DNA from: a virus
IMG/VR virus record: IMGVR_UViG_3300023184_000422
Coordinates: 1 to 28,263 of that record
Strand: one strand, 5' to 3'
Length of the DNA: 28,263 nt
Positions 1,076-22,584 of this stretch are shown piece after piece. Numbering within the stretch: the first letter of the stretch is position 1; each line of letters starts with the position of its first letter. Below the pieces are notes generated by a model. That model saw nothing but the letters and a program-made list of their open reading frames with translations. It was not told the DNA's origin and did no database searches. The position numbers and the translations under genes are program-made.

Positions 1076-4000
1076 ATGGCACAACTCTTATCTGGAACAA
1101 GAATATACGGAACCGGTACCGTTGATACTCGACTAATTGTCAATGGTACTACTAATAGTACATCAACTACAACAGGTGCATTAACTGTTGCCGGTGGAGT
1201 AAGTATTGTTAAAGATTTATATGTTGGTGGTACTGTTTATATTTCAGGTACTATTCTTACTGGTACACAAGGTACCACCGGTAGTCAAGGTGTATTTGGT
1301 ACTCAGGGTACGTTTGGTAATCAAGGTACTACTGGTAATCAAGGTACCACCGGTAGTCAAGGTACCACTGGTAGTCAAGGAACAACTGGTGCCCAAGGTA
1401 GTAATGGTACACAAGGTATATTTGGCACTCAAGGTACACAAGGTACACAAGCAAGTCAAGGTACTACTGGTCTTCAAGGTACCACTGGTACAGCTACTCA
1501 AGGTGTTACAGGTACTGCTACTCAAGGTGCCCAAGGCACCATAGGCAATCAAGGCACCACAGGCAACCAAGGCACCACAGGTACAGCTACTCAAGGTACT
1601 ATAGGTAGTCAAGGTGTTCAAGGAGTTACTGGTTTTATTGGTAATACTGGAACGCAAGGTGTTATTGGTAATACTGGTACGCAAGGGGTTACTGGCAGTC
1701 AAGGAGTCCAAGGTGTACTAGGCCAACAAGGAGTCCAAGGTGTTACTGGTTTTATTGGTAGTACTGGTACACAAGGTCGTCAAGGTGTTCAAGGGTTAAC
1801 AGGAAATCAAGGTATACAAGGTACTACTGGTACTGGTACTCAAGGTACGCTCGGCAATCAAGGTATACAAGGCCTTACTGGTACTGCTACTCAAGGTGTT
1901 GATGGAACTGCTACTCAAGGTCGTCAAGGTGTTCAAGGTGTTACAGGTACTGCTACTCAAGGCGTTACTGGTACTGCTACTCAAGGCGTTCAAGGTTCGC
2001 AAGGTGTTTTAGGTGTACAAGGCCTTACTGGTACCGCTACTCAAGGCGTTACTGGTACTACTATTCAAGGTGCCCAGGGTGTACAGGGTGTACAAGGCCT
2101 TACTGGTATTGCTACTCAAGGTGTAACGGGTTCAACTGTAGGTTTGAACTTTGCTACTAGCCAGGGATGGGTAGCAGGGTTATCTGGCGACCAACTAGGT
2201 TACTACGGTGGAAACTTTACTCTAAACGGAACTTCCGCTGAAAACGTCATAGCCTATGGAACTGATCCGTTTGGCCGCCGTAGCATACTATGGGGTGCTC
2301 GTAGTAACGATGCAGCTAGTAACGACGACGGAGGTTGGAACAAGACCATTACTAGTGTAAGTTATCTCAAGAGTTACATGAGTGTGGTATATGTTAGACG
2401 AAACGGAACCAGCACCAATGGTAATTTTTATCACGGTTGTGACGGTGGTAATACTATTAATCTTGCCGGTAGTGCTGATACCAATCCTTATTTTGGTCCG
2501 TTTGGTATTAGTACTTTACCACAGGATGTGTGGTGTATAAGTATTGGATTTATACAAGCATACGGGGATACTAATGCTTCTAATACTGCACGAGGCGGCC
2601 TATATCGTATGGATACTGGGCAAAAGATTGTTGCCTATACAGACTTCAGAATGGCCAATGGTGCTACTCAACAAACACATAGAACATATCTATACTATTC
2701 CACTGATGCAGCAGCCAGTTTAGATTGGTGGGGACCCGGTTTCTACGAAATCAATGGCAATGAGCCTAACTTAGAACAACTGTTAGGCAGTAATAATGCA
2801 GGTTGGAGAAAAAATTGGTATGCACCGGCATATTATGACAGTGATGATAATGGTTACTATCTAGATCCTAATTCTACAGGTGTGGCATTAAGAGCAAGAG
2901 GTCAACTATATACAGGGCCTAATTCAAGTGGACGTTATACTAGATTTGGTGGGGATGGTGGTTCAGCAGATGAGGCAACCGTAAGTGCATCTAACGGAAA
3001 TTTACACATTGATTCAAAGACAGGATATGGCCTTTATTTAAACTATTATTCAAATGGTGACATTCATTCAAACAATGGAGGCGGCATTTTCTACAATTAT
3101 ACTCAAATGCGTTCACCTGTATTTTATGATTATAATGATACTACTTACTATATTGATATTAATGGAGCATATGGAACTAACAACAATGGGTTTACAGCGT
3201 TTAGTAAGATGCGTCTTGGATCAACGTACAAATTTAATACAGCACGTAACGATTACATTGGCGATAGTACTTATTGGAACGGTGCAATGGGGTGGGGTGT
3301 TACCGACCTAAACACTGTATTTGGTTGGGGAAACGGCTTTTGGGATTCATGGGGTAGTCCCGGTAATCAGCCTGCTGGTACTAGTCATTGGGATGGTATA
3401 AACGTTCAACATGCCCATAATGGAACATATGGATGGGGTTGGCAAATGACCATGGGTGCTGGTCAGCCTGGGTTAACATACATTAGAGGTGCATGGGGTG
3501 GAACTCCTGGTGATTGGTATAAAGTGCCTCTAATAGGAGTCAACTCTAGCGGCAATGTGTATGCAAGTGTCTACTACGATAGTGACAATACTGGTTATTA
3601 TGTTGATCCAAATAACAACTCATATGTATATAGTTTAACCGCTGCCTCGTATCTAAGATCTAATGGTAATGTCTTAATAGATGCCAATTACGGTTATAGT
3701 GTTATGGGTACATATTCATCAACACGTTACCAGGGTGTTTGGTCAATGGGAACAAGTTGGTATCTACCAGCCGATGGTACTACTACAGGTAATTTATATG
3801 GCCTAGCATGGAGTTATCCTAGTACCGGTGGTGCTGCTGCTAATTTAGCAAGTCATGGATTACTATGCTTAATCAATGGCGGATTTGCTTCGTCAATGAG
3901 TACTAACATAGTAGCATCGTCAGATGTAAGAGGTACTATTTTCTACGATTATAACGATACTGGTTACTATTGTGATCCAAATAATACTTCATTAATAAGA

Positions 4001-5200
4001 AGTTTATATTTAGGAGCACATGATTCGGGTGCTGCTGAATTTAGATTTGGTGAAGATTCAAGTGGTTGGTACGGTGATCGTTGGTATTGGGACAGTGGGT
4101 ATAATGTATACCGTTATAGTCGATATGCAGGTGCCGACAGTCTAATTCATTATCATGATACACGGGATACCACAAGAATTACATATGGTCGTAACATTGT
4201 ATTTGATAATTTTGGTAAAGGTATAGTTGGTAATTACGATTCTTATCGCTATCAGGGTGTGTTCTCAATGGGTGATAGTTATAAGTTGCCAGCTGATGGT
4301 ACTACTACAGGTAATTTATACGGCCTAGCATGGAGTCATCCTAATGCTGGTGGGGCAGCAAGTTATTTAGGTAGTCACGGTGTAATATTGTTAGAAAACG
4401 GAAGTTTCAAAGGTGCATGGGGTGGCGGAAGTTTTAGAACACCCGGCCGAGTCGACGGCACAATTTTCTATGATTGGAACGATTCTGGTTATTATTGTGA
4501 TCCCAACGGTTATTCATCAATGAATACTATGAGATTGTGGGGTAACGAATTTTATATTAGAGGAAGTTCACCTACTATACATTTCCAAGATACCGATCAC
4601 ATGAGTGCTGCCTTACATAACAATAGTAATCTATTTTATATTTTACGAGGTGGAGTTGATGATACTAGTTGGAGTACAGTTGGCTCTGGCTGGTGGCCTG
4701 CTTATTGGGATTTAAGCAATAATAATTGTACAATGGGTGGAACACTCGGTGTCTATAGTGATATCACAGCCTATGCGTCTGATGTACGTCTAAAAGAAAA
4801 TATTGTAGAAATTCCAAATGCCATTGATAAGATTAAAAATATACGTGGTGTAACTTTTGACTGGAATAATACAGCCGACGAAGTTGGGTTTATACCTGAT
4901 AGAAAATATAATGATTTAGGCGTTATTGCTCAAGAAATTCAAAAAGTATTACCACAGGCAGTTAGTCCGGCACCATTTGATAAATGGTCACCAGATCCTG
5001 GCGTAAACTACGAGCAATCATATCTTGATGAAAAAATGGGAACATCTCGATCAGGAGAAAACTATCTAACTGTTAAACTTGATAAAATTGTACCACTTTT
5101 AATTGAAGGTATAAAAGAACAGCAAGAAATGATTGAAAAACAAAATGAAAAAATTTCAAATTTAGAATTGTTAATAGAGAAATTTTTAAAAAATAAATAA
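1076..5200 (+). CDS. Large tail fibre protein, collagen-like with DPN repeats and S74 chaperone
   Basis: A 1374-residue fibre protein. Residues 1-62 form a head region with the GALTVAGGVSI...LYVGG pattern common in marine phage fibres. Residues 63-352 are Gly-X-Y repeats rich in Gln and Thr. Residues 353-1230 are a beta-rich shaft/tip carrying five copies of a (Y/F)YD..D.GYY.DPN motif, at residues 586, 683, 833, 956 and 1131. They also carry a duplicated segment built around RYQGV(W/F)SMG and PADGTTTGNLYGLAWS. The last 140 residues, from Ser1235 in SDVRLKENI, are the S74 intramolecular chaperone with GVIAQEIQ and a C-terminal coiled helix; self-cleavage is expected between Ser1235 and Asp1236. 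Role inferred: the receptor-binding fibre. The ATG follows a late promoter motif with no visible ribosome site. Confidence 0.9.
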   Translation: MAQLLSGTRIYGTGTVDTRLIVNGTTNSTSTTTGALTVAGGVSIVKDLYVGGTVYISGTILTGTQGTTGSQGVFGTQGTFGNQGTTGNQGTTGSQGTTGSQGTTGAQGSNGTQGIFGTQGTQGTQASQGTTGLQGTTGTATQGVTGTATQGAQGTIGNQGTTGNQGTTGTATQGTIGSQGVQGVTGFIGNTGTQGVIGNTGTQGVTGSQGVQGVLGQQGVQGVTGFIGSTGTQGRQGVQGLTGNQGIQGTTGTGTQGTLGNQGIQGLTGTATQGVDGTATQGRQGVQGVTGTATQGVTGTATQGVQGSQGVLGVQGLTGTATQGVTGTTIQGAQGVQGVQGLTGIATQGVTGSTVGLNFATSQGWVAGLSGDQLGYYGGNFTLNGTSAENVIAYGTDPFGRRSILWGARSNDAASNDDGGWNKTITSVSYLKSYMSVVYVRRNGTSTNGNFYHGCDGGNTINLAGSADTNPYFGPFGISTLPQDVWCISIGFIQAYGDTNASNTARGGLYRMDTGQKIVAYTDFRMANGATQQTHRTYLYYSTDAAASLDWWGPGFYEINGNEPNLEQLLGSNNAGWRKNWYAPAYYDSDDNGYYLDPNSTGVALRARGQLYTGPNSSGRYTRFGGDGGSADEATVSASNGNLHIDSKTGYGLYLNYYSNGDIHSNNGGGIFYNYTQMRSPVFYDYNDTTYYIDINGAYGTNNNGFTAFSKMRLGSTYKFNTARNDYIGDSTYWNGAMGWGVTDLNTVFGWGNGFWDSWGSPGNQPAGTSHWDGINVQHAHNGTYGWGWQMTMGAGQPGLTYIRGAWGGTPGDWYKVPLIGVNSSGNVYASVYYDSDNTGYYVDPNNNSYVYSLTAASYLRSNGNVLIDANYGYSVMGTYSSTRYQGVWSMGTSWYLPADGTTTGNLYGLAWSYPSTGGAAANLASHGLLCLINGGFASSMSTNIVASSDVRGTIFYDYNDTGYYCDPNNTSLIRSLYLGAHDSGAAEFRFGEDSSGWYGDRWYWDSGYNVYRYSRYAGADSLIHYHDTRDTTRITYGRNIVFDNFGKGIVGNYDSYRYQGVFSMGDSYKLPADGTTTGNLYGLAWSHPNAGGAASYLGSHGVILLENGSFKGAWGGGSFRTPGRVDGTIFYDWNDSGYYCDPNGYSSMNTMRLWGNEFYIRGSSPTIHFQDTDHMSAALHNNSNLFYILRGGVDDTSWSTVGSGWWPAYWDLSNNNCTMGGTLGVYSDITAYASDVRLKENIVEIPNAIDKIKNIRGVTFDWNNTADEVGFIPDRKYNDLGVIAQEIQKVLPQAVSPAPFDKWSPDPGVNYEQSYLDEKMGTSRSGENYLTVKLDKIVPLLIEGIKEQQEMIEKQNEKISNLELLIEKFLKNK
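1262..2131 (+). repeat. Gly-X-Y coding repeat of fibre 2
   Basis: About 290 codons keep Gly at every third residue, with frequent GTQ, GVQ, GVT and GTTG units interrupted by TATQ blocks. The repeat shares word-for-word stretches with the repeat of the upstream fibre gene (for example GGTACTCAAGGT). It gives spurious long antisense frames rich in Ser, Thr and Leu. Confidence 0.9.
2831..4507 (+). repeat. Five dispersed YYDxxDxGYYxDPN coding motifs
   Basis: Each copy is 42 bases long, at 2831, 3122, 3572, 3941 and 4466. The consensus is aromatic-Tyr-Asp-X-X-Asp/Asn-X-Gly-Tyr-Tyr-X-Asp-Pro-Asn. Copy 2 is the most diverged (TTYYIDIN). The copies stand about 290 to 525 bases apart and mark the boundaries of the tip modules. 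Confidence 0.85.
3692..4516 (+). repeat. Imperfect duplicated fibre-tip module
   Basis: Residues encoded by 3692-3991 and 4214-4516 are two versions of one module. Each has G-Y/N-Y-(S/D)S-x-RYQGV(W/F)SMG, then LPADGTTTGNLYGLAWS, a Gly/Ala-rich turn, SHG, a hydrophobic strand with NG, and the closing FYD..D.GYYCDPN motif. Nucleotide identity is very high around 3770-3815 against 4292-4336. Confidence 0.8.
5192..5199 (+). promoter_or_regulatory. Possible late promoter AATAAATA
   Basis: The motif overlaps the stop codon of the large fibre gene and lies 21 bases before the ATG at 5221. Between them is a clear AGGAG Shine-Dalgarno at 5211-5215. It could be a chance match in AT-rich DNA. Confidence 0.4.
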
Positions 5201-5906: not shown

Positions 5907-6887
5907 ATGACAAATCTTGCAAAATTCGCTCTAGATAGAGGCGGTAGCATACACCCTCTTATTATCCCGTCAGAGCAAACAAATGGTACGGGATTAATGA
6001 ACCCATCTATTTTAATAGATGACGGTAAGATTATTGTTAATATTCGACATGTTAACTATACATTTTTTCATTCTGAAAAGAAATTATTTCAACATCCATG
6101 GGGTCCGCTAACTTATTTGCATCCTGAAAATGATATTCATTTAAGGACTGATAATTTCTATTGCGAACTCAATGATGATTTTGAAATTACCAGAATTAAT
6201 AAAATTGATACATCTAAATTTGATACCTATGAACCCATGTGGGATTTTGTAGGATTAGAAGATGCAAGATTAATAAGATGGAATGGAAAGTTATATATAA
6301 CTGGTGTACGTAGAGACACCACTACTAATGGTCAAGGTAGAATGGAACTTTCTGAAATAGTAGTTTCAGAAAACGCTGTTACAGAAGTATCTAGATTTAG
6401 AATTCCTCCTCCTAAAGATTTAAATTCTTATTGTGAAAAAAACTGGATGCCTGTATTAGATGTTCCATATCACTATGTTAAATGGACTAATCCTACTGAA
6501 CTAGTAAGTATTAATCCAGAATCTCAAACTTCTAAAACAGAATATTTGAGTGGATCAATATGGTTACCTAGAGATATACGTGGTGGTTCTCAAGTAATGA
6601 AATTCAACGATGGGTATATTGCATTAACACACGAAGTAGATTTATTCAAAAGTGAAGTTGGTAGAAAAGATGCAGTATATAAACATCGATTTATCATCTG
6701 GGATAAAAATTGGAATGTAGTTAAATATACCAATGATTTTTCTATCATGGATGCTCATGTTGAGTTTTCTATAGGTATGTGCAAATATAAAGATGATATC
6801 TTAATTACATTTGGATTCCAGGATAACGCTGCCTACTTGCTAAAGTTCCCTGCAGAAGCACTTGAAAATTTTATAAATTCTTATTAA
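5907..6887 (+). CDS. Five-bladed beta-propeller protein, GH130/GH43-like
   Basis: A 326-residue cytosolic-type protein. The motifs NPSI (32-35), GLEDARL (116-122), EKNWMP (177-182), GGSQ (226-229) and VEFSIGM (285-291) recur at blade-like spacing and resemble those of the five-bladed propeller glycosidase/phosphorylase fold (GH130-like). Such proteins cleave or phosphorolyse glycosidic bonds, or act beside glycosyltransferases. Whether catalytic acids are conserved cannot be settled by eye, so the specific reaction is unknown. It heads a run with a methyltransferase, a radical SAM protein and a glycosyltransferase, so a part in making or trimming a glycan is inferred. Confidence 0.6.
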   Translation: MTNLAKFALDRGGSIHPLIIPSEQTNGTGLMNPSILIDDGKIIVNIRHVNYTFFHSEKKLFQHPWGPLTYLHPENDIHLRTDNFYCELNDDFEITRINKIDTSKFDTYEPMWDFVGLEDARLIRWNGKLYITGVRRDTTTNGQGRMELSEIVVSENAVTEVSRFRIPPPKDLNSYCEKNWMPVLDVPYHYVKWTNPTELVSINPESQTSKTEYLSGSIWLPRDIRGGSQVMKFNDGYIALTHEVDLFKSEVGRKDAVYKHRFIIWDKNWNVVKYTNDFSIMDAHVEFSIGMCKYKDDILITFGFQDNAAYLLKFPAEALENFINSY

Positions 6888-6894
6888 AAATAGT

Positions 6895-8184
6895 ATGAAA
6901 ACAAATAGCACACTTATCAATTTATTAGAAAAATTTATACATGACCCTGCGGATGCTGAAATTAATTTTTTATTGGCATTGCATTACAATAGCATAGGAC
7001 AAACAGCATCGGCAGTTTCATACTATATAAGAACTGCTGAAAGAACCAACGACGATTTGTTGAAATACGAATGTTTAGTAAAAGCCGCAAGATGTTTTGA
7101 AAAACAAGGAACACGGGCATTTTCTGTAAAAGGTCTATTGCAACATGCCATTGCATTGTTGCCAACTCGACCAGAAGCATATTTCTTTTTAAGTAGAATA
7201 CATGAAATTGAACAGAAAGAAGGTGATTGGTTTTTATGTTATATGTTATCATCTACAGGATTAGGTGTTTGCGATCATAATTCTACGCCACTGAGGACAG
7301 ATGTAGGATATCCCGGAATATATGGATTATTATTTGAAAAAGCAGTTAGTAGCTGGTGGTGTGGATTGTGTGAAGAATCTAGAACATTGTTCAAAGATTT
7401 ATTAGTTAATCATGAAATTGATGATACACATAGATCAGCTGTCATTAAGAATTTAAAATATTTTGAAGAAATTGGAATTAAAGAAAATAAATTAACTTTA
7501 TTCAATAAAGAAAAATATAGTCAACTAAAATTAAAATTCCCAGGTTCGGAAAATATTGAAAAAAACTTTGCCGAATCATATCAAGATATGTTTGTATTAA
7601 CTATGTTAAATGGAAAACGCAAAGGAACTTATTTAGAGATAGGTGCTGCTAATCCATTTTATGGAAATAATACAGCATTACTAGAACAAAACTTTGAGTG
7701 GACTGGGGTATCTCTAGATATAGATCAACAGTTTATTGATGCGTTTTCAAAAGAAAGAAAAAATCCATGTTTGTTAAAGGATGCAACATTAATAAATTAT
7801 GAGAAATTTTTACCAGGCTTAGATTTTTCTAACGATATAGATTATTTGCAATTAGATTGTGACCCACCTAATATTACATATAACATACTATTATCGATGC
7901 CTTTTGAAAAATATCGATTTGCAGTTATCACCTATGAACATGATTACTATTGTGATGAATCTAAGAAATTTAGAGAAAAATCAAGAAAATATCTAGAGTC
8001 GTTTGGATATGTTATGGTAGTAAATGATATTGCACCCGACGATTGGCGGAACTACGAAGACTGGTGGATACATCCAGATTTAATAGATCCAGTAATATTA
8101 GAAAAGATGAAACTTATTAATTCAACAACTAAAAAAGCAGAAGATTATATGCTTGGCAAAATTATAAATGAAACCAGAACATAA
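6895..8184 (+). CDS. TPR-like domain fused to FkbM-type SAM methyltransferase
   Basis: A 429-residue two-domain protein. Residues 1-190 are helical repeats of TPR type (for example DAEINFLLALHYNSIGQTAS and RPEAYFFLSRIHEIEQ). Residues about 225-415 form a class I methyltransferase. Its SAM-binding motif I is YLEIGAANP at 246-254, followed by the N-N-T of the FkbM family at 258-260. An acidic ribose-binding position is at SLDID (273-277), and motif IV-like DYLQLDCDPP is at 316-325. FkbM relatives O-methylate sugars or other small hydroxyl groups. The TPR part may dock partners. The gene starts 7 bases after the propeller gene and its end overlaps the next gene by 17 bases. Confidence 0.72.
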   Translation: MKTNSTLINLLEKFIHDPADAEINFLLALHYNSIGQTASAVSYYIRTAERTNDDLLKYECLVKAARCFEKQGTRAFSVKGLLQHAIALLPTRPEAYFFLSRIHEIEQKEGDWFLCYMLSSTGLGVCDHNSTPLRTDVGYPGIYGLLFEKAVSSWWCGLCEESRTLFKDLLVNHEIDDTHRSAVIKNLKYFEEIGIKENKLTLFNKEKYSQLKLKFPGSENIEKNFAESYQDMFVLTMLNGKRKGTYLEIGAANPFYGNNTALLEQNFEWTGVSLDIDQQFIDAFSKERKNPCLLKDATLINYEKFLPGLDFSNDIDYLQLDCDPPNITYNILLSMPFEKYRFAVITYEHDYYCDESKKFREKSRKYLESFGYVMVVNDIAPDDWRNYEDWWIHPDLIDPVILEKMKLINSTTKKAEDYMLGKIINETRT

Positions 8185-9088
8185 AATAAAAGTTTTTCCA
8201 GGAGTTTATATTGAGAAGTGGAGACTTTCTCGTTCCCCTACATTGGAAATTACTACAATAATTCCAAAAAAGGGATGTGTGGTTGATTGTGTGTTCTGTC
8301 CACAACGTATTTTAGAATCTAAATATAAAGGTGAACCAATTTTATCTATAGAAGGGTTTAGAACGTTAATAGATAAAGTACCTAAAGACATAAGAATTAC
8401 ATTTGCAGGATTTACCGAGCCGTGGATGAACAAATATTGCACAGATATGGTACTATATGCACACAATCAAGGCCATCCTGTATCTATATTCACCACTGGT
8501 ATAGGAATGTCCATAGAAGATATGGAACGTATTAAACATATTCCGTTTGCTGGAAATCCTAACGGTGGTTTTGTTCTTCATTTGCCTGATCAAGGACGTT
8601 TAGCAAAACATCCAATAACTAAAAGTTATATTAAACTTTTAGAATACATAAAAACAATTCAACATGAAATACATAATTTCCATACTATGTCTATGGGAAC
8701 TGAAATGCATGAAGATATTAGGCATATATATTCATCTGCACCGGTACATGAAATGTGGCACCGTGCAGGAAATTTGCTAGGTGAAGCATTATTAAAACCT
8801 GAGTTAGAAAATTTAAAAAATGAATATAAAACAGTATTTCATGGAAATCATGATATGACGTGTAATTGTGAAGAAAGATTATATCATAATGTTTTGTTGC
8901 CAAACGGAGATGTTTCTCTTTGTTGTATGGACTATAGTTTAGAAAATATTATAGGTAATTTATACAATCAAAGTTACGATGAAGTAATTCCAAACCCCTA
9001 CTCTACTTTTAAAATTTGCAGATCTTGTGAAAATGGAATAAAGTTGGATTCTGATGTAATTAAATTTGAAAAAGGTTTTATAAGATGA
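8168..9088 (+). CDS. Radical SAM protein with SPASM-like C-terminal cysteines
   Basis: A 306-residue protein. The cysteine triad C37-x3-C41-x2-C44 (GCVVDCVFCPQ) binds the 4Fe-4S cluster that splits S-adenosylmethionine. A Gly/Glu segment follows (ITFAGFTEPW). The C terminus carries C232, C234, C252, C253, C284 and C287 around LPNGDVSLCCMDY and ICRSC, which is the layout of a SPASM/twitch auxiliary cluster domain. Family members modify peptides or sugars by radical chemistry; the substrate here is unknown. The start lies inside the methyltransferase gene (17-base overlap), and the stop overlaps the next ATG as ATGA, so translation is probably coupled. Its position between a methyltransferase and a glycosyltransferase suggests a shared modification pathway. 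Confidence 0.8.
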   Translation: MKPEHKIKVFPGVYIEKWRLSRSPTLEITTIIPKKGCVVDCVFCPQRILESKYKGEPILSIEGFRTLIDKVPKDIRITFAGFTEPWMNKYCTDMVLYAHNQGHPVSIFTTGIGMSIEDMERIKHIPFAGNPNGGFVLHLPDQGRLAKHPITKSYIKLLEYIKTIQHEIHNFHTMSMGTEMHEDIRHIYSSAPVHEMWHRAGNLLGEALLKPELENLKNEYKTVFHGNHDMTCNCEERLYHNVLLPNGDVSLCCMDYSLENIIGNLYNQSYDEVIPNPYSTFKICRSCENGIKLDSDVIKFEKGFIR

Positions 9089-9873
9089 GCACACAACAAT
9101 CAATACCAGTCATCGGAACAGCAGTAGTTAATAGTAATTTTTGGGTAACTAGATTATTAATGAGTATCGATTATCCGGTTGATAATTTTGTTATTATTAA
9201 CAATAACGGCCGCGGTGAACTAGATGAAGATTTAGATAATTTAAAAAAAATAAATCATAAATTTGTTAAGAATATAAAAATAGTACATTTACCTGCAAAT
9301 ATAGGAGTTGCCGGTGCATGGAATCTTATAATTAAATGCTACATGAATAGTCCATACTGGATCATAACCAATGATGATGTGTCATTTGGTCCGGGCGTAT
9401 TGGAAGAAATGTCGACTAAGATAGAAAACGATTCTAACTTAGGGTTAATACATGGTAACCCAGGAGCATTTGGTGTTGGTAGTTGGGATTTATTCTTAAT
9501 AAGAGATATTATTATTCAAACATTTGGTTTATTTGATGAAAACTTATATCCAGCATATTGTGAAGATGCAGACTATATTATGAGATTTATACATAGACCA
9601 ATTAAAAAAATATTGTCCTTAGATAACCCATACTATCACGGATTAGAAATAAGCAACGGAGAATATCATTATCAAACACAAAAAAATGATCCTAGCTTAA
9701 AAGAAAAATTAGATGATGTTAATGCAATGAATATAGATTATCTGACAAAGAAATGGGGAACAGGATGGAGATTATGTTCACCTACGTTTACACCATTTGA
9801 AAATCAAGAAGTAAATTCTAATAAATCTAATTACGATTTAGAATTTGTTAGGAAGAAACACTTAGGATTTTAA
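9085..9873 (+). CDS. GT-A fold glycosyltransferase, family 2-like
   Basis: A 262-residue enzyme expected to move a sugar from a nucleotide-sugar donor. Visible marks are the nucleotide-binding beta start (IPVIGTAVVNS), VIINN, LPANIGVAGAWN (69-80), a DxD-like NDDV (96-99), and GLFDENLYPAYCEDADY (148-164), which is the acceptor/catalytic region typical of rhamnosyl- or other GT2 enzymes. There are no membrane helices. It starts in an ATGA overlap with the radical SAM gene. Its stop shares bases with the convergent Nudix gene (4-base overlap at 9870-9873). Donor and acceptor are unknown; virion proteins such as the Thr-rich fibres are possible acceptors. Confidence 0.82.
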   Translation: MSTQQSIPVIGTAVVNSNFWVTRLLMSIDYPVDNFVIINNNGRGELDEDLDNLKKINHKFVKNIKIVHLPANIGVAGAWNLIIKCYMNSPYWIITNDDVSFGPGVLEEMSTKIENDSNLGLIHGNPGAFGVGSWDLFLIRDIIIQTFGLFDENLYPAYCEDADYIMRFIHRPIKKILSLDNPYYHGLEISNGEYHYQTQKNDPSLKEKLDDVNAMNIDYLTKKWGTGWRLCSPTFTPFENQEVNSNKSNYDLEFVRKKHLGF

Positions 9874-10310
9874 AATAAATCCAATAATAATTCTAATTTA
9901 GCTCTAATAATTTTACTGCTAAATGAATTCTTTACAGCCCTATGCAATGGTTTAGGCCATTGATCGTAACTGGCCCATGCATAGCCATCATGTTCTTCAT
10001 TTAGTACAGGTATGAATTCTCTGTCAACAATCAATAGATAAGTGTTATACTGAAATTGTAGATCGTTGCTGATAAACAATTCTAGAGGAATTACTTTTTT
10101 TATAGTAGGCATTTTGCCTATTTCTTCATGGATCTCTCGTATAAGAGCATCATACGGAGTACTATCTGAAGGTTCTTTTTTACCGCCAACTAGTCCCCAT
10201 GTACCTGCTGTTTTAGATTGTGTTCTTGACAGAAATAAAAATCGTTTGGTATCTTTAGCAAGAAATAGCCCACCACTACATATTACTTGATTTAAAGAAT
10301 TATTCTCCAT
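9870..10310 (-). CDS. Nudix hydrolase
   Basis: A 146-residue Nudix-fold pyrophosphohydrolase, expected to cleave a nucleoside diphosphate linked to another group. The Nudix box runs over residues 43-65. REIHEEIG matches the consensus catalytic half, while the leading half GKKEPSD has Asp where Glu is usual and one extra residue before Arg58. The GTWGLVGG strand before the box is typical. Substrate cannot be read from sequence: nucleotide-sugar, oxidised nucleotide or NAD-type compounds are all possible. It is the third gene of the minus-strand gp14-gp15 unit and overlaps the end of gp15 by 19 bases, so it should be made late. Its 3' end meets the glycosyltransferase gene head-on. Confidence 0.85.
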   Translation of the reverse strand: MENNSLNQVICSGGLFLAKDTKRFLFLSRTQSKTAGTWGLVGGKKEPSDSTPYDALIREIHEEIGKMPTIKKVIPLELFISNDLQFQYNTYLLIVDREFIPVLNEEHDGYAWASYDQWPKPLHRAVKNSFSSKIIRAKLELLLDLF

Positions 10311-13731: not shown

Positions 13732-14388
13732 ATGATCATAGGTTTTGTAGGTTTAATTGGCTCTGGAAAAGACACCGCCGCTGATTATTTGGTTAATTTT
13801 CACGGATTTAGAAGAGATAGTTTTGCTGGCACATTAAAAGATGCTGTAGCAGCCGTGTTTGGTTGGGATCGTACATTACTCGAAGGCCGTACAAAAGAAG
13901 CCCGAGAATGGCGAGAACAAGTAGATCCGTGGTGGGCCAAGCGGCTAGACATGCCTAATCTAACACCAAGGTGGATTCTTCAATGGTGGGGTACAGAAGT
14001 ATGCCGTAAAGCGTTTCATAATGACATCTGGATTGCTAGCTTGGAACATAAGTTATTAACCAGTAATGATAACATTGTTATTAGTGATGTACGCTTTCCT
14101 AATGAAATTGACGCAATTCATAAAGCCGGCGGCCTTGTGGTACGTATTAAGCGTGGTGATGATCCTAACTGGATTTCTGCTGCAAAATCATTTAATAGTG
14201 GACCGAACGGTAATACAACTTGGGCACTTAGTAGACAAAAACTAGAAAAAGCAAAAATACACGCCAGTGAATATTCTTGGGTAGGCGGCAAAATTGATCA
14301 TATAGTATCCAATGATAGTACCATTGATTCATTATTTGAACAACTTAAAAATCTGGTCGAAGATCTCCCTGCTTCCAAGGCAATTTAA
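13732..14388 (+). CDS. gp1: Deoxynucleoside monophosphate kinase (T4 gp1-like)
   Basis: A 218-residue kinase that phosphorylates dNMPs to dNDPs for phage DNA synthesis. The P-loop is GLIGSGKDT at residues 7-15, with Lys13. Next comes YLVNFHGFRRDSFAGTLKDAV, the lid/substrate region typical of the family. RWILQWWGTEVCR and NIVISDVRFPNE follow, the latter the Walker B-like strand and Asp/Arg turn seen in T4 gp1. An AAGGA ribosome site 6 bases before the ATG fixes the start. Its last 44 bases overlap the convergent small zinc protein gene. It sits among structural genes but has a sigma70-like promoter, so expression may be early. Confidence 0.88.
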   Translation: MIIGFVGLIGSGKDTAADYLVNFHGFRRDSFAGTLKDAVAAVFGWDRTLLEGRTKEAREWREQVDPWWAKRLDMPNLTPRWILQWWGTEVCRKAFHNDIWIASLEHKLLTSNDNIVISDVRFPNEIDAIHKAGGLVVRIKRGDDPNWISAAKSFNSGPNGNTTWALSRQKLEKAKIHASEYSWVGGKIDHIVSNDSTIDSLFEQLKNLVEDLPASKAI

Positions 14389-14680
14389 GTTTATGTAATA
14401 TGCGTTGACAATTGGCGCATACTGTCTTAAGATTTGTATATCTACAATTTGTTACATTACCATCGACGTAGAATACGTTAAATTGATCAGGGTATTTAGA
14501 TGTAAAACCACATTTATCACATGTGGTTTTCTTTTTATATCCTGCTTTTTCCCACAAAGGTATACCATCTTTGCGTTGACTTGCACAATGGTCACACTTG
14601 GATCTATAGAAGGCTTTACCTAATTTATAATAGTTAATTGCCACAGGCCTGTTACCGCATTCTTTGCATAAATCTCTCAT
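14345..14680 (-). CDS. Small four-CxxC zinc protein, degenerate HNH-like
   Basis: A 111-residue protein with four CxxC pairs: C5/C8, C29/C32, C54/C57 and C88/C91. Two structural zinc sites are therefore likely. The segment FYVDGNVTNCRYTNLKTVCA followed by NCQ resembles an HNH nuclease core (H-x-DGN-x2-N-x4-NL-x2-C-x2-C). The catalytic His before VDGN is Tyr71 here, and the closing H is displaced (ILHKL). Similar small proteins are common in T4-like cyanophages, where as I recall the His is often present. It may be an inactive relative used for DNA or protein binding. It ends in PWKQGDLRPDF. The gene is convergent with, and overlaps, the dNMP kinase gene by 44 bases. Confidence 0.78.
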   Translation of the reverse strand: MRDLCKECGNRPVAINYYKLGKAFYRSKCDHCASQRKDGIPLWEKAGYKKKTTCDKCGFTSKYPDQFNVFYVDGNVTNCRYTNLKTVCANCQRILHKLKLPWKQGDLRPDF

Positions 14681-20160: not shown

Positions 20161-20883
20161 ATGCCAAAAATTACAGAGTTATCAATTACACCAACTATTA
20201 GCGATGCTACAACTTTTTTAGTAGTTAATAACGGTGCCGCAAAAAGATTTGCCTATCAAGATTTATCTAATCAGATATTAGCAAACGTACCAATAGCAAT
20301 ACAAGGAACCAACGGTACACAAGGAATTGATGGTGCCCAAGGAAGTAGAGGCTTACAAGGTCTAACTGGCCAAGGTACTCAGGGTGTCGGCGGAGCCCAG
20401 GGTAGCTCTACTGGATCACAAGGAGCACAAGGGCCAAATGCAGGGCAAGGTACACAAGGATTGACTGGACAAGGTGTACAAGGTGTTACAGGTCCTGGTA
20501 GTTCATATATTAGAGGTGTAGCTCAGGGTTCAACTGCAAACATTGCAGATAGTGCAACTGGTAATATTTCAATTACAGGATTTAAATCTTATTCATTACT
20601 AAAGGTGCAAACAAGTGCAGCAGCTTGGGTTCGACTATATATAACTAGTGCGGCAAGAACCAGCGACAGTGCAAGAGATCAAACTACAGACCCTACTCCA
20701 GGATCAGGTGTAATAGCTGAAGTAATTACAACAGGAGCACAAACACAATTAATAACGCCAGCTATATTTGGATTCAACGATGATACAACACCAGGCAATA
20801 CAATTTATCTAGCAGTAACTAATCTAAGTGGGTCAACAGCTTCAATAACAGTTACATTAACACTATTACGTTTGGAAACATAA
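20161..20883 (+). CDS. Short collagen-like virion protein with C-terminal beta-sandwich
   Basis: A 240-residue protein in three parts. Residues 1-48 form a small alpha/beta head (KITELSITPTISDATTFLVV). Residues 49-113 are imperfect Gly-X-Y repeats. Residues about 118-240 form a beta-sandwich with SYSLLKVQTSAAAWVRLYIT, GSGVIAEVITTGAQT, PAIFGFNDD and ITVTLTLLRLE. This C-terminal domain is one I recognise from collagen-like proteins of marine T4-like phages. A short fibre or virion decoration is inferred. It starts 5 bases after the preceding stop and ends one base before the peptidase gene, so the two are almost certainly co-translated. Confidence 0.78.
   Translation: MPKITELSITPTISDATTFLVVNNGAAKRFAYQDLSNQILANVPIAIQGTNGTQGIDGAQGSRGLQGLTGQGTQGVGGAQGSSTGSQGAQGPNAGQGTQGLTGQGVQGVTGPGSSYIRGVAQGSTANIADSATGNISITGFKSYSLLKVQTSAAAWVRLYITSAARTSDSARDQTTDPTPGSGVIAEVITTGAQTQLITPAIFGFNDDTTPGNTIYLAVTNLSGSTASITVTLTLLRLET
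20305..20499 (+). repeat. Gly-X-Y coding repeat
   Basis: About 65 codons with Gly mostly at every third residue (GTQ, GAQ, GLT, GVQ) but with several breaks (GQG, GSSTG). It is a shorter, more irregular version of the fibre repeats at 111-635 and 1262-2131. Confidence 0.85.
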
Positions 20884-20884
20884 A

Positions 20885-22144
20885 ATGTCTGACATAGATG
20901 AAAGTATTGAATCTACCAATTTAAAAGAATTTGATATTTCTGATATTAATCCACTATTTCGTATAGGAGATTATGTAGGACTCACACCACCGGCAGTTGC
21001 AATTGCTTATAACTTTCCTGCAAGTGACGGAGCAGGAGTTAAAATTGGTATTATTGCACCCATAGGTGGCGGATTTTTGCAAAGTGATCTTAATAAAACA
21101 TTTGATGATTTAAAATTTAGTGGATTAATTGCTGCAGGTACTACTGCACCTACAATTAACCAAGTATTATTAGATGGAACAAGTGGTACATTTACTGGAG
21201 CATCTCCAGATAATGAAAATACACTTGATATCTATGCAATAGCCACACTAGTTCCGGCAGCTAATATCACTATATATTTTAGTAGCGGTTTTACATCTGC
21301 ACTTAATAGAGCAATATCCGACGGCTGTCATATTATCAGTATAAGTTATACATACGTCAGCGGTGAGCCTAGTTCAGGTACCATGGCAACTATAGATAGT
21401 ATATTATCAACAGCATCTGCTGCTAAGATTGCAATTTGTGTGTCATCTGGAGATAGCGGGTCAACATTTACAGGATTATCAACTGTAAAAGTAGCATACC
21501 CAGCATCTAGCCCAAATGTTATTGCTGTAGGTGGAACAAAACTTACATTAAATTTAAATAACACAAGACAAAGTGAAACTGATGATAACAGAGATCTTGG
21601 CTTTTCAGCAACATGGGGCGGAGGTGGAGGTATAAGTGGATATTTTTCATTACCTAATTGGCAAGCTGGTCTATACTATACACCCATTAATAGTGGTACT
21701 ACTGGAACACAAACAGCATTAACTATGAGAGGAGTACCTGATATTTCAGGACCAATGAATGGGCATTTACTTTATTTTAATGGAGCCATAGTGTCGTATG
21801 GTGGGACTAGTGTTTCAGCACCAGTAATGGCAGGGATGCTGGCAAGAATGCAAGCATTAACAGGCAAACAACGATCATCTGCGGAATATAATACATTATT
21901 CTATAAGAATAAAAATTCATTTTACGATATAGTAGTTGGAAGTAATAACACTCTTATTACTAGTGGATATATTGGTACTACAGATTGGGATCCTGTTACT
22001 GGGTTAGGTCCTCCCACAGGAACTTTAGTTTACAAATATTTAAAAAATGGGTTACGACCTACTTCAGGTAAAATATTTCCTAATGATAAATTTAATCGTA
22101 GACCTGCATCTGGACAAATTTGGCCACGTAGTAAAACTTTATGA
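20885..22144 (+). CDS. Sedolisin-type serine-carboxyl peptidase (S53), no prodomain
   Basis: A 419-residue protein that aligns end to end with the mature catalytic domain of kumamolisin-like sedolisins. Visible marks: LTPPAVAIAYNFP (33-45) at the mature-domain start; VKIGIIAPIGGGF; Glu111 and Asp115 in ENTLD (catalytic E-x3-D); SISY; Asp190 in SSGDSGS (oxyanion acid); YPASSPNVIAVGGTKL (205-220); RGVPDISG (282-289); nucleophile Ser309 in GGTSVSAP. Asp348 and Asp369 (DWDPVTGLG) fit the calcium site. All four catalytic residues are present. Known sedolisins are secreted with a signal and a prodomain of roughly 150-200 residues; here neither exists. The last 30 residues repeat RP(T/A)SG(K/Q)I(F/W)P, perhaps a virion anchor. 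It lies between a collagen-like protein and gp4 (ATGA overlap), so it is a late and probably virion-borne protease. Confidence 0.87.
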   Translation: MSDIDESIESTNLKEFDISDINPLFRIGDYVGLTPPAVAIAYNFPASDGAGVKIGIIAPIGGGFLQSDLNKTFDDLKFSGLIAAGTTAPTINQVLLDGTSGTFTGASPDNENTLDIYAIATLVPAANITIYFSSGFTSALNRAISDGCHIISISYTYVSGEPSSGTMATIDSILSTASAAKIAICVSSGDSGSTFTGLSTVKVAYPASSPNVIAVGGTKLTLNLNNTRQSETDDNRDLGFSATWGGGGGISGYFSLPNWQAGLYYTPINSGTTGTQTALTMRGVPDISGPMNGHLLYFNGAIVSYGGTSVSAPVMAGMLARMQALTGKQRSSAEYNTLFYKNKNSFYDIVVGSNNTLITSGYIGTTDWDPVTGLGPPTGTLVYKYLKNGLRPTSGKIFPNDKFNRRPASGQIWPRSKTL

Positions 22145-22584
22145 GTTTAAAATTTAGTCAAGGTATCTACCAAGTAAAAAATATTGAAAAATATATTGGC
22201 AGTAAACCTCCCTATTGTAGAAGTAGTTGGGAAACCACATTTTGTATGTTTTGCGATAATAATCCTAGTATACAAGAATGGGCTAGCGAACCCGTGAAGA
22301 TACCTTATAGAGATCCACTAACAGGCAAGGCCACTGTATATGTTCCTGATTTCTTAATTTCTTATATTGATAAACACATGAAGAAACATGCAGAACTCAT
22401 AGAAATAAAACCTGCTAATCAGATGCTTAAAGAACGTGTAGGTAAAAATCCTTACAATCAAGCACAATTTGTTAAGAATCAAGCTAAGTGGGCCGCTGCA
22501 AGTAAATGGTGCCATCAACAAGGAATTAAGTTTCGAGTTATTAACGAGCACGATATTTTTTCCAATAGCAAAAAATCTAAATAA
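22141..22584 (+). CDS. gp4: Head completion nuclease gp4
   Basis: A 147-residue protein of the T4 gp4 (gp50/gp65) family, distantly TnsA-nuclease-like. Conserved elements are YCRSSWE (25-31), WASEPVKIPY, YVPDF (67-71) and ELIEIKP (85-91), giving the E...D...E-x-K set of a PD-(D/E)xK nuclease: Glu31, Asp70, Glu88, Lys90. In T4 this protein finishes the packaged head before the tail joins, probably by trimming or sealing DNA at the portal. Length equals T4 gp4 (150). The start overlaps the peptidase stop (ATGA), so translation is coupled. Confidence 0.85.
   Translation: MSLKFSQGIYQVKNIEKYIGSKPPYCRSSWETTFCMFCDNNPSIQEWASEPVKIPYRDPLTGKATVYVPDFLISYIDKHMKKHAELIEIKPANQMLKERVGKNPYNQAQFVKNQAKWAAASKWCHQQGIKFRVINEHDIFSNSKKSK
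22576..22583 (+). promoter_or_regulatory. Late promoter motif TCTAAATA (gp16)
   Basis: The motif overlaps the end of the gp4 gene and lies 9 bases before the ATG at 22593. The predicted leader is about 4 bases long. AAGAG between them is a poor ribosome site. Confidence 0.5.

Follow-up and report, generated by a model that had tools for sequence, protein, structure and literature searches.

Prodomain-free sedolisins of environmental phages and a fibre-linked protease slot common to S53 and S8 peptidases

Introduction

Sedolisins (peptidase family S53) belong to the acid-protease type and are usually secreted by bacteria and fungi, and the enzymes found on phage fibres and spikes are known mainly as sugar-cutting ones. 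Among isolated phages, S-CREM1, S-H9-1 and S-H38 encode proteins of phrog_9158, directly after a recurrent domain denoted dom below, that are annotated as 'peptidase' or 'subtilisin-like serine protease'. The characterised S53 enzymes are active at acid pH, and one of them, kumamolisin-As, is collagenolytic (PMC11294657). Here we analyze a sedolisin gene from a 28,263-nucleotide stretch of viral DNA (the window; positions 1 to 28,263 of the IMG/VR record IMGVR_UViG_3300023184_000422), together with its relatives and its genomic neighborhood.

Results

The sedolisin gene (20885..22144, plus strand) encodes a protein of 419 aa in an uninterrupted reading frame that extends from the ATG at 20885 to the TGA at 22142-22144. 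A phmmer search of PDB sequences aligned residues 33-383 with kumamolisin (1t1g, E 1.1e-36), and this range, along with the superposition on 4ne7, delineates the catalytic domain (20981..22033, plus strand). The Pfam match is PF00082 (E 1.5e-12), which is, together with the prodomain model PF09286, the only Pfam model seen to cover S53 proteins in this analysis. Both searches bear out the assignment to S53 that had been made from the letters alone (hereinafter the sequence-only reading). The motifs ENTLD, SSGDSGS, GGTSVSAP and DWDPVTGLG start at residues 111, 187, 306 and 367, respectively, and the alignment pairs the tetrad named in that reading, namely Glu111 (codon 21215..21217), Asp115 (21227..21229), the oxyanion residue Asp190 (21452..21454) and the nucleophile Ser309 (21809..21811; all on the plus strand), with E78, D82, D164 and S278 of kumamolisin 1t1g.

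We predicted the structure with AlphaFold2 from 32 phage homologues (pLDDT 83, pTM 0.86). The top-ranked Foldseek match of the model is kumamolisin (E 9e-25; TM 0.73 by query, 0.85 by target), and VIA-align superimposed it on kumamolisin-As (4ne7) with Z 45.2 and rmsd 1.9 over 331 residues. The Z values were 44-45 for kumamolisins, 41 for the Pseudomonas sedolisin and no higher than about 26 for S8-type enzymes, so that the predicted fold is nearer to S53 than to S8 structures. Neither of the outcomes named as refuting the sequence-only reading was thus observed, as judged on superposition for the fold and on the phmmer alignment for the tetrad. The calcium-site pattern read at the C-terminus holds in part: D348 and D369 are conserved, but D367 occupies the position of kumamolisin G336. 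The dN/dS values against relatives are 0.25-0.33, and the gene is under purifying selection.

A survey of phages for homologues, suggested by the sequence-only reading, yielded 47 related loci in IMG/VR (two scans), most of them 36-84% identical across the best segment, and none in 50,697 isolate phage records, for which the queries were one cellular S53 protein, the window sedolisin and two diverged members of the phage family. Given that the window sedolisin as query picks up 51 plasmid records, we consider the isolate search to have worked. Among 32 aligned phage sedolisins, Glu111, Asp115, Asp190 and Ser309 are invariant at a mean column identity of 42%. In a maximum-likelihood tree of 58 catalytic domains, a branch with full support sets these 32 members apart, and their neighbors are kumamolisin-like cellular enzymes, with the proviso that the cellular sample is small and mostly from Actinomycetota, so that cellular members may yet fall inside the phage group. 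Literature searches found no paper on a phage sedolisin; one match, a Histophilus gene located in a mobile region and belonging to a cluster that mixes S8 and S53, was not accepted as such. The family is ordinary in its catalytic class and new in its setting, consisting of prodomain-free sedolisins that our searches met only on environmental phage contigs. Two loci (L003, 6885-8139; L034, 7911-9177) have a broken sedolisin frame, which could reflect either sequencing error or a decayed copy.

The sequence-only reading had also stated that the protein lacks both a prodomain and a signal peptide, and this proved correct. A search for PF09286 (Pro-kuma_activ) in all frames of the 28 kb record gave no match even at E 10, which rules out a prodomain encoded elsewhere in the record, and simple hydropathy over the first 40 residues found no signal-like segment (the best 13-residue value is 0.83). 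The same holds across the phage family: all 32 aligned members retain the tetrad and match PF00082, and PF09286 is found in none of them (0/32). The match to the catalytic-domain profile starts no more than about 65 residues from the N-terminus of phage sedolisins, which leaves no room for a prodomain of about 140 residues. Among the sampled cellular S53 proteins, 17 of 27 contain PF09286; a prodomain is usual in S53 but does not define membership of the family. When the model is aligned with pro-kumamolisin using VIA, the matching range starts at residue 10 of the phage protein, against residue 169; the short arm at the N-terminus may be the counterpart of the former linker, which we mention only as a lead from the model. 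In a slime mould, a sedolisin with hardly any propeptide, or none, has reportedly been described, and accordingly the phage family may not be alone in lacking a prodomain. The phage branch represents a natural set of prodomain-free sedolisins that is useful for asking what the prodomain does.

The gene is tightly coupled to its neighbors, as originally noted, with a 1 nt gap to the upstream gene and an ATGA overlap with the downstream one. The upstream fibre-like gene (20161..20883, plus strand; 240 aa) matches phrog_9627, phrog_15343 and tail-fibre families, and its product consists of an N-terminal region, collagen-like repeats and, at the C-terminus, dom, a recurrent partner domain of about 120 residues (20512..20877, plus strand) that is predicted to form a beta-sandwich (pLDDT 96) and itself matches both phrogs. 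Most of the sedolisin loci have dom immediately upstream, as a rule with a 1 nt gap, down to about 40% identity, and this adjacency persists where the remainder of the partner gene and all downstream genes differ. In all 79 IMG/VR loci with similarity to dom, the domain ends one residue short of the protein end. It is also present in 49 isolate phage records, nearly all from cyanophages, where the gene is annotated mostly as hypothetical, tail fibre, baseplate wedge/tail pin or structural protein; in the S-SCSM1 and S-CBS2 records the dom gene is labelled as a virion or structural protein. No clear structural relative stood out in Foldseek (best E 1.7e-3) or VIA (best Z 7.3, a tied list) searches, and we therefore assign no function to dom. 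A role of dom as a substitute prodomain acting in trans is disfavored, because the S8 enzymes described below have both dom and a probable propeptide, and unpaired S53 members have neither dom nor a prodomain. The final codons of the dom gene (TTG GAA ACA TAA, within 20869-20887) contain GGAA, which may be the ribosome-binding site for the sedolisin; several cyanophages have GAGG at the equivalent place.

The downstream gene (22141..22584, plus strand) encodes a T4 gp4-like head-closure protein (phrog_218 'head closure', E 4e-40; PF08722, E 6e-23). The weight that the sequence-only reading had placed on this gene and on the collagen-like stalk does not survive comparison with other loci. Gp4 directly follows the sedolisin only in the window and in L002, L003 and L008, its closest relatives among the loci seen, and most dom partner genes lack collagen-like repeats, which leads us to reject the stalk as the partner of the sedolisin; both features are incidental.

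The gene that follows dom most often encodes a peptidase of another family. In a non-redundant set of 50 downstream proteins, drawn from the 79 IMG/VR loci and excluding the S53 cases L002 and L008, 47 are S8 subtilases (PF00082). Isolates with an S8 subtilase directly after dom are S-MbCM7, S-CREM1, S-H9-1, S-CAM1, S-RSM4, ACG-2014e and S-H38. The gene after dom has no protease match in Sf-CH1b, S-CBS2 and S-SCSM1, and none was recognized by eye in PSS2; dom alone does not imply a neighboring protease. The best PDB profile matches of the N-terminal stretch of the S8 enzymes are subtilisin propeptides, with weak scores (E 0.25-0.39), and this stretch has no counterpart in the S53 enzymes of the slot. 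By the definition of a dom-protease cassette adopted here, the window locus qualifies in that its protease gene follows a dom gene and encodes an RPxSGxx[FYW]PR-type tail, a motif that often comes as a pair with a 15-residue period; the S8 domain of the usual occupant is absent. In L079 (4374-7298; S-MbCM7), L081 and L087, the S8 slot proteases extend beyond the tail motif into additional C-terminal regions that are cupredoxin-like or alpha/beta-hydrolase-like.

The tail in question is a pair of motifs, RPTSGKIFPN (residues 391-400) and RPASGQIWPR (residues 406-415), with a 15-residue period (22055..22129, plus strand), which falls in a low-confidence, disordered region of the AlphaFold2 model. 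An equivalent pair with identical spacing (for instance, RKVNGNVYPK and RPNDGQVWPR) occurs in many S8 slot proteins. Of 643 ORFs from the S53 loci scanned with a simple motif, 27 matched, and every one of these is a sedolisin. After removal of near-identical rows, all 18 dom-paired complete sedolisins have the RPxSGxxYPR-type tail and none of the 9 unpaired ones does (Fisher p 2.1e-7, an optimistic value given the relatedness of the rows), and tail and dom also go together in L040/L042, a separate lineage of the tree. A profile built from the 18 S53 tails alone and searched against 1,145 proteins retrieved 40 IMG/VR slot proteins and one isolate protein at E 1e-3 (58 and 4 at E 1), recovering most S8 slot tails; L002 and L008 contribute the remaining two matches with their S53 proteins, and none of the approximately 1,060 unrelated ORFs scored below E 1. 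Because the catalytic domains of the S8 and S53 enzymes differ and the tail is common to both, these observations point to exchange of the catalytic part with retention of the tail. Many phage sedolisins sit in a fibre-linked protease slot that they share with S8 enzymes.

The unpaired sedolisins mostly come after other fibre-like genes and either end in a repeated tail of another type (KTxxxTW) or continue into long fused C-terminal regions, as in L017/L018 (1,413 aa), L043/L044 (820-838 aa) and L032 (649 aa); judging from their make-up, the fused regions are probably structural. The 734 aa sedolisin of L011 has dom and a glycine-rich extension. The KTxxxTW repeats are found at the C-termini of the sedolisins of L028, L033, L035, L039 and L046, and several of the preceding fibre-like genes end in '...GDIWYQT'; these genes and sedolisins may represent a second pairing system.

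Elsewhere in the window, two collagen-like fibre genes (1-1060 and 1076-5200) have similar 'RLKENI...GVIAQE' ends, recognized by eye, which we take to resemble a self-cleaving fibre chaperone domain of the S74 type. The block at 5907-10310, which separates the fibre gene from the structural module, contains genes for a radical-SAM/SPASM protein, a family 2 glycosyltransferase and a NUDIX hydrolase and perhaps serves surface or fibre modification. A minus-strand ORF of 111 aa (14345-14680) overlaps the dNMP-kinase gene at the end of the latter and has conserved counterparts in L002 (1458-1793) and L003 (339-674); it shows cysteine-pair patterns and may encode an HNH-like or zinc-finger protein.

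Discussion

Taken together, the gene order, domain architectures and tail motifs suggest that the window protein is probably a serine-carboxyl peptidase of family S53 residing on the tail fibre or baseplate of the virion, docked to dom through its C-terminal tail and cutting proteins of the host surface or matrix; we infer its virion location, the contact between tail and dom, its activity and its substrate. Under this model, dom would mark the tip of the fibre, the sedolisin encoded 1 nt downstream of the fibre-like gene would be clipped to the dom fibre, probably by the RPxSG motif pair, and the fibre-borne enzyme would cleave proteins of the host surface or matrix as the phage attaches and enters. 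Downstream of dom, the slot is typically filled by an S8 subtilase with a probable propeptide and, in the lineage of the window, by a prodomain-free S53 enzyme instead. Since the characterised S53 enzymes act at acid pH, the neutral cytoplasm itself might hold the phage sedolisin inactive, which is a guess. A virion-borne protease was already among the proposals of the sequence-only reading, and that part of it is supported, on grounds other than the neighbors then stressed: the dom partner, the tail common with S8 slot enzymes, and the fusions to long phage proteins.

Much of the same genomic pattern would result if the sedolisin were an assembly or maturation protease that, within the host cell, trims the neighboring fibre or a different structural protein and need not stay in the virion. 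The close junction with the fibre gene and the lack of a signal peptide are compatible with such a role, as are the collagen-like repeats of the window partner, considering that kumamolisin-As is collagenolytic (PMC11294657). However, most dom partners lack these repeats, fusion of sedolisins to long phage proteins suits a resident enzyme better, and activity in a neutral cytoplasm would be unusual for S53 enzymes, which work at acid pH where characterised; we regard a maturation role as unlikely, although it is the alternative to which we give the most weight. Far less plausible, in our estimate, is a binding or scaffold protein that keeps the protease fold for attachment with little or no catalysis. 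Enzyme folds do get reused as binding heads on fibres, and the absence of a prodomain could mean poor folding to an active enzyme, but the invariance of the four catalytic residues in 32 members that share a mean column identity of 42% is hard to reconcile with the loss of catalysis. Equally improbable appears an auxiliary (moron) gene that functions in protein degradation or lysis within the host and has no link to the virion: S53 genes are indeed common in bacterial genomes and plasmids, but this one is located in the structural module, directly behind a fibre gene, its product carries a specific tail common to S8 enzymes of the same slot, and the phage sedolisins group apart from the sampled cellular S53 proteins.

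Extending the model of a fibre-borne peptidase beyond the window, we see about even chances that aquatic tailed phages possess a modular fibre protease slot in which a tip domain and a docking tail take on different peptidase families, with the prodomain-free sedolisin as the occupant here. Occupancy by S53 is perhaps linked to a different pH or host surface, the connection to acid waters being a guess. Such a widespread slot would tie two peptidase families with one tail motif to a fibre-tip domain, and it is testable now in isolated Synechococcus phages.

Among known systems, kumamolisin and kumamolisin-As resemble the phage enzyme in fold (Z 45; about 34% identity across 331 residues), in the Ser-Glu-Asp triad with the oxyanion Asp and, in part, in the calcium-site pattern; unlike them, the phage enzyme lacks the signal peptide and the prodomain of about 140 residues, is encoded next to a fibre gene and bears the extra RPxSG tail. 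The S53-like proteins predicted from metagenome assemblies of giant viruses (Barrevirus, Homavirus, Terrestrivirus and Sylvanvirus) are likewise virus-encoded and share the fold at no more than 33% identity, but are larger (521-972 aa). The S8 subtilases encoded after dom in Synechococcus myophages (phrog_9158) are alike in gene slot, upstream dom, C-terminal tail motif and, usually, a short junction, and differ in belonging to family S8 rather than S53 and in having an N-terminal stretch of their own that weakly resembles a subtilisin propeptide.
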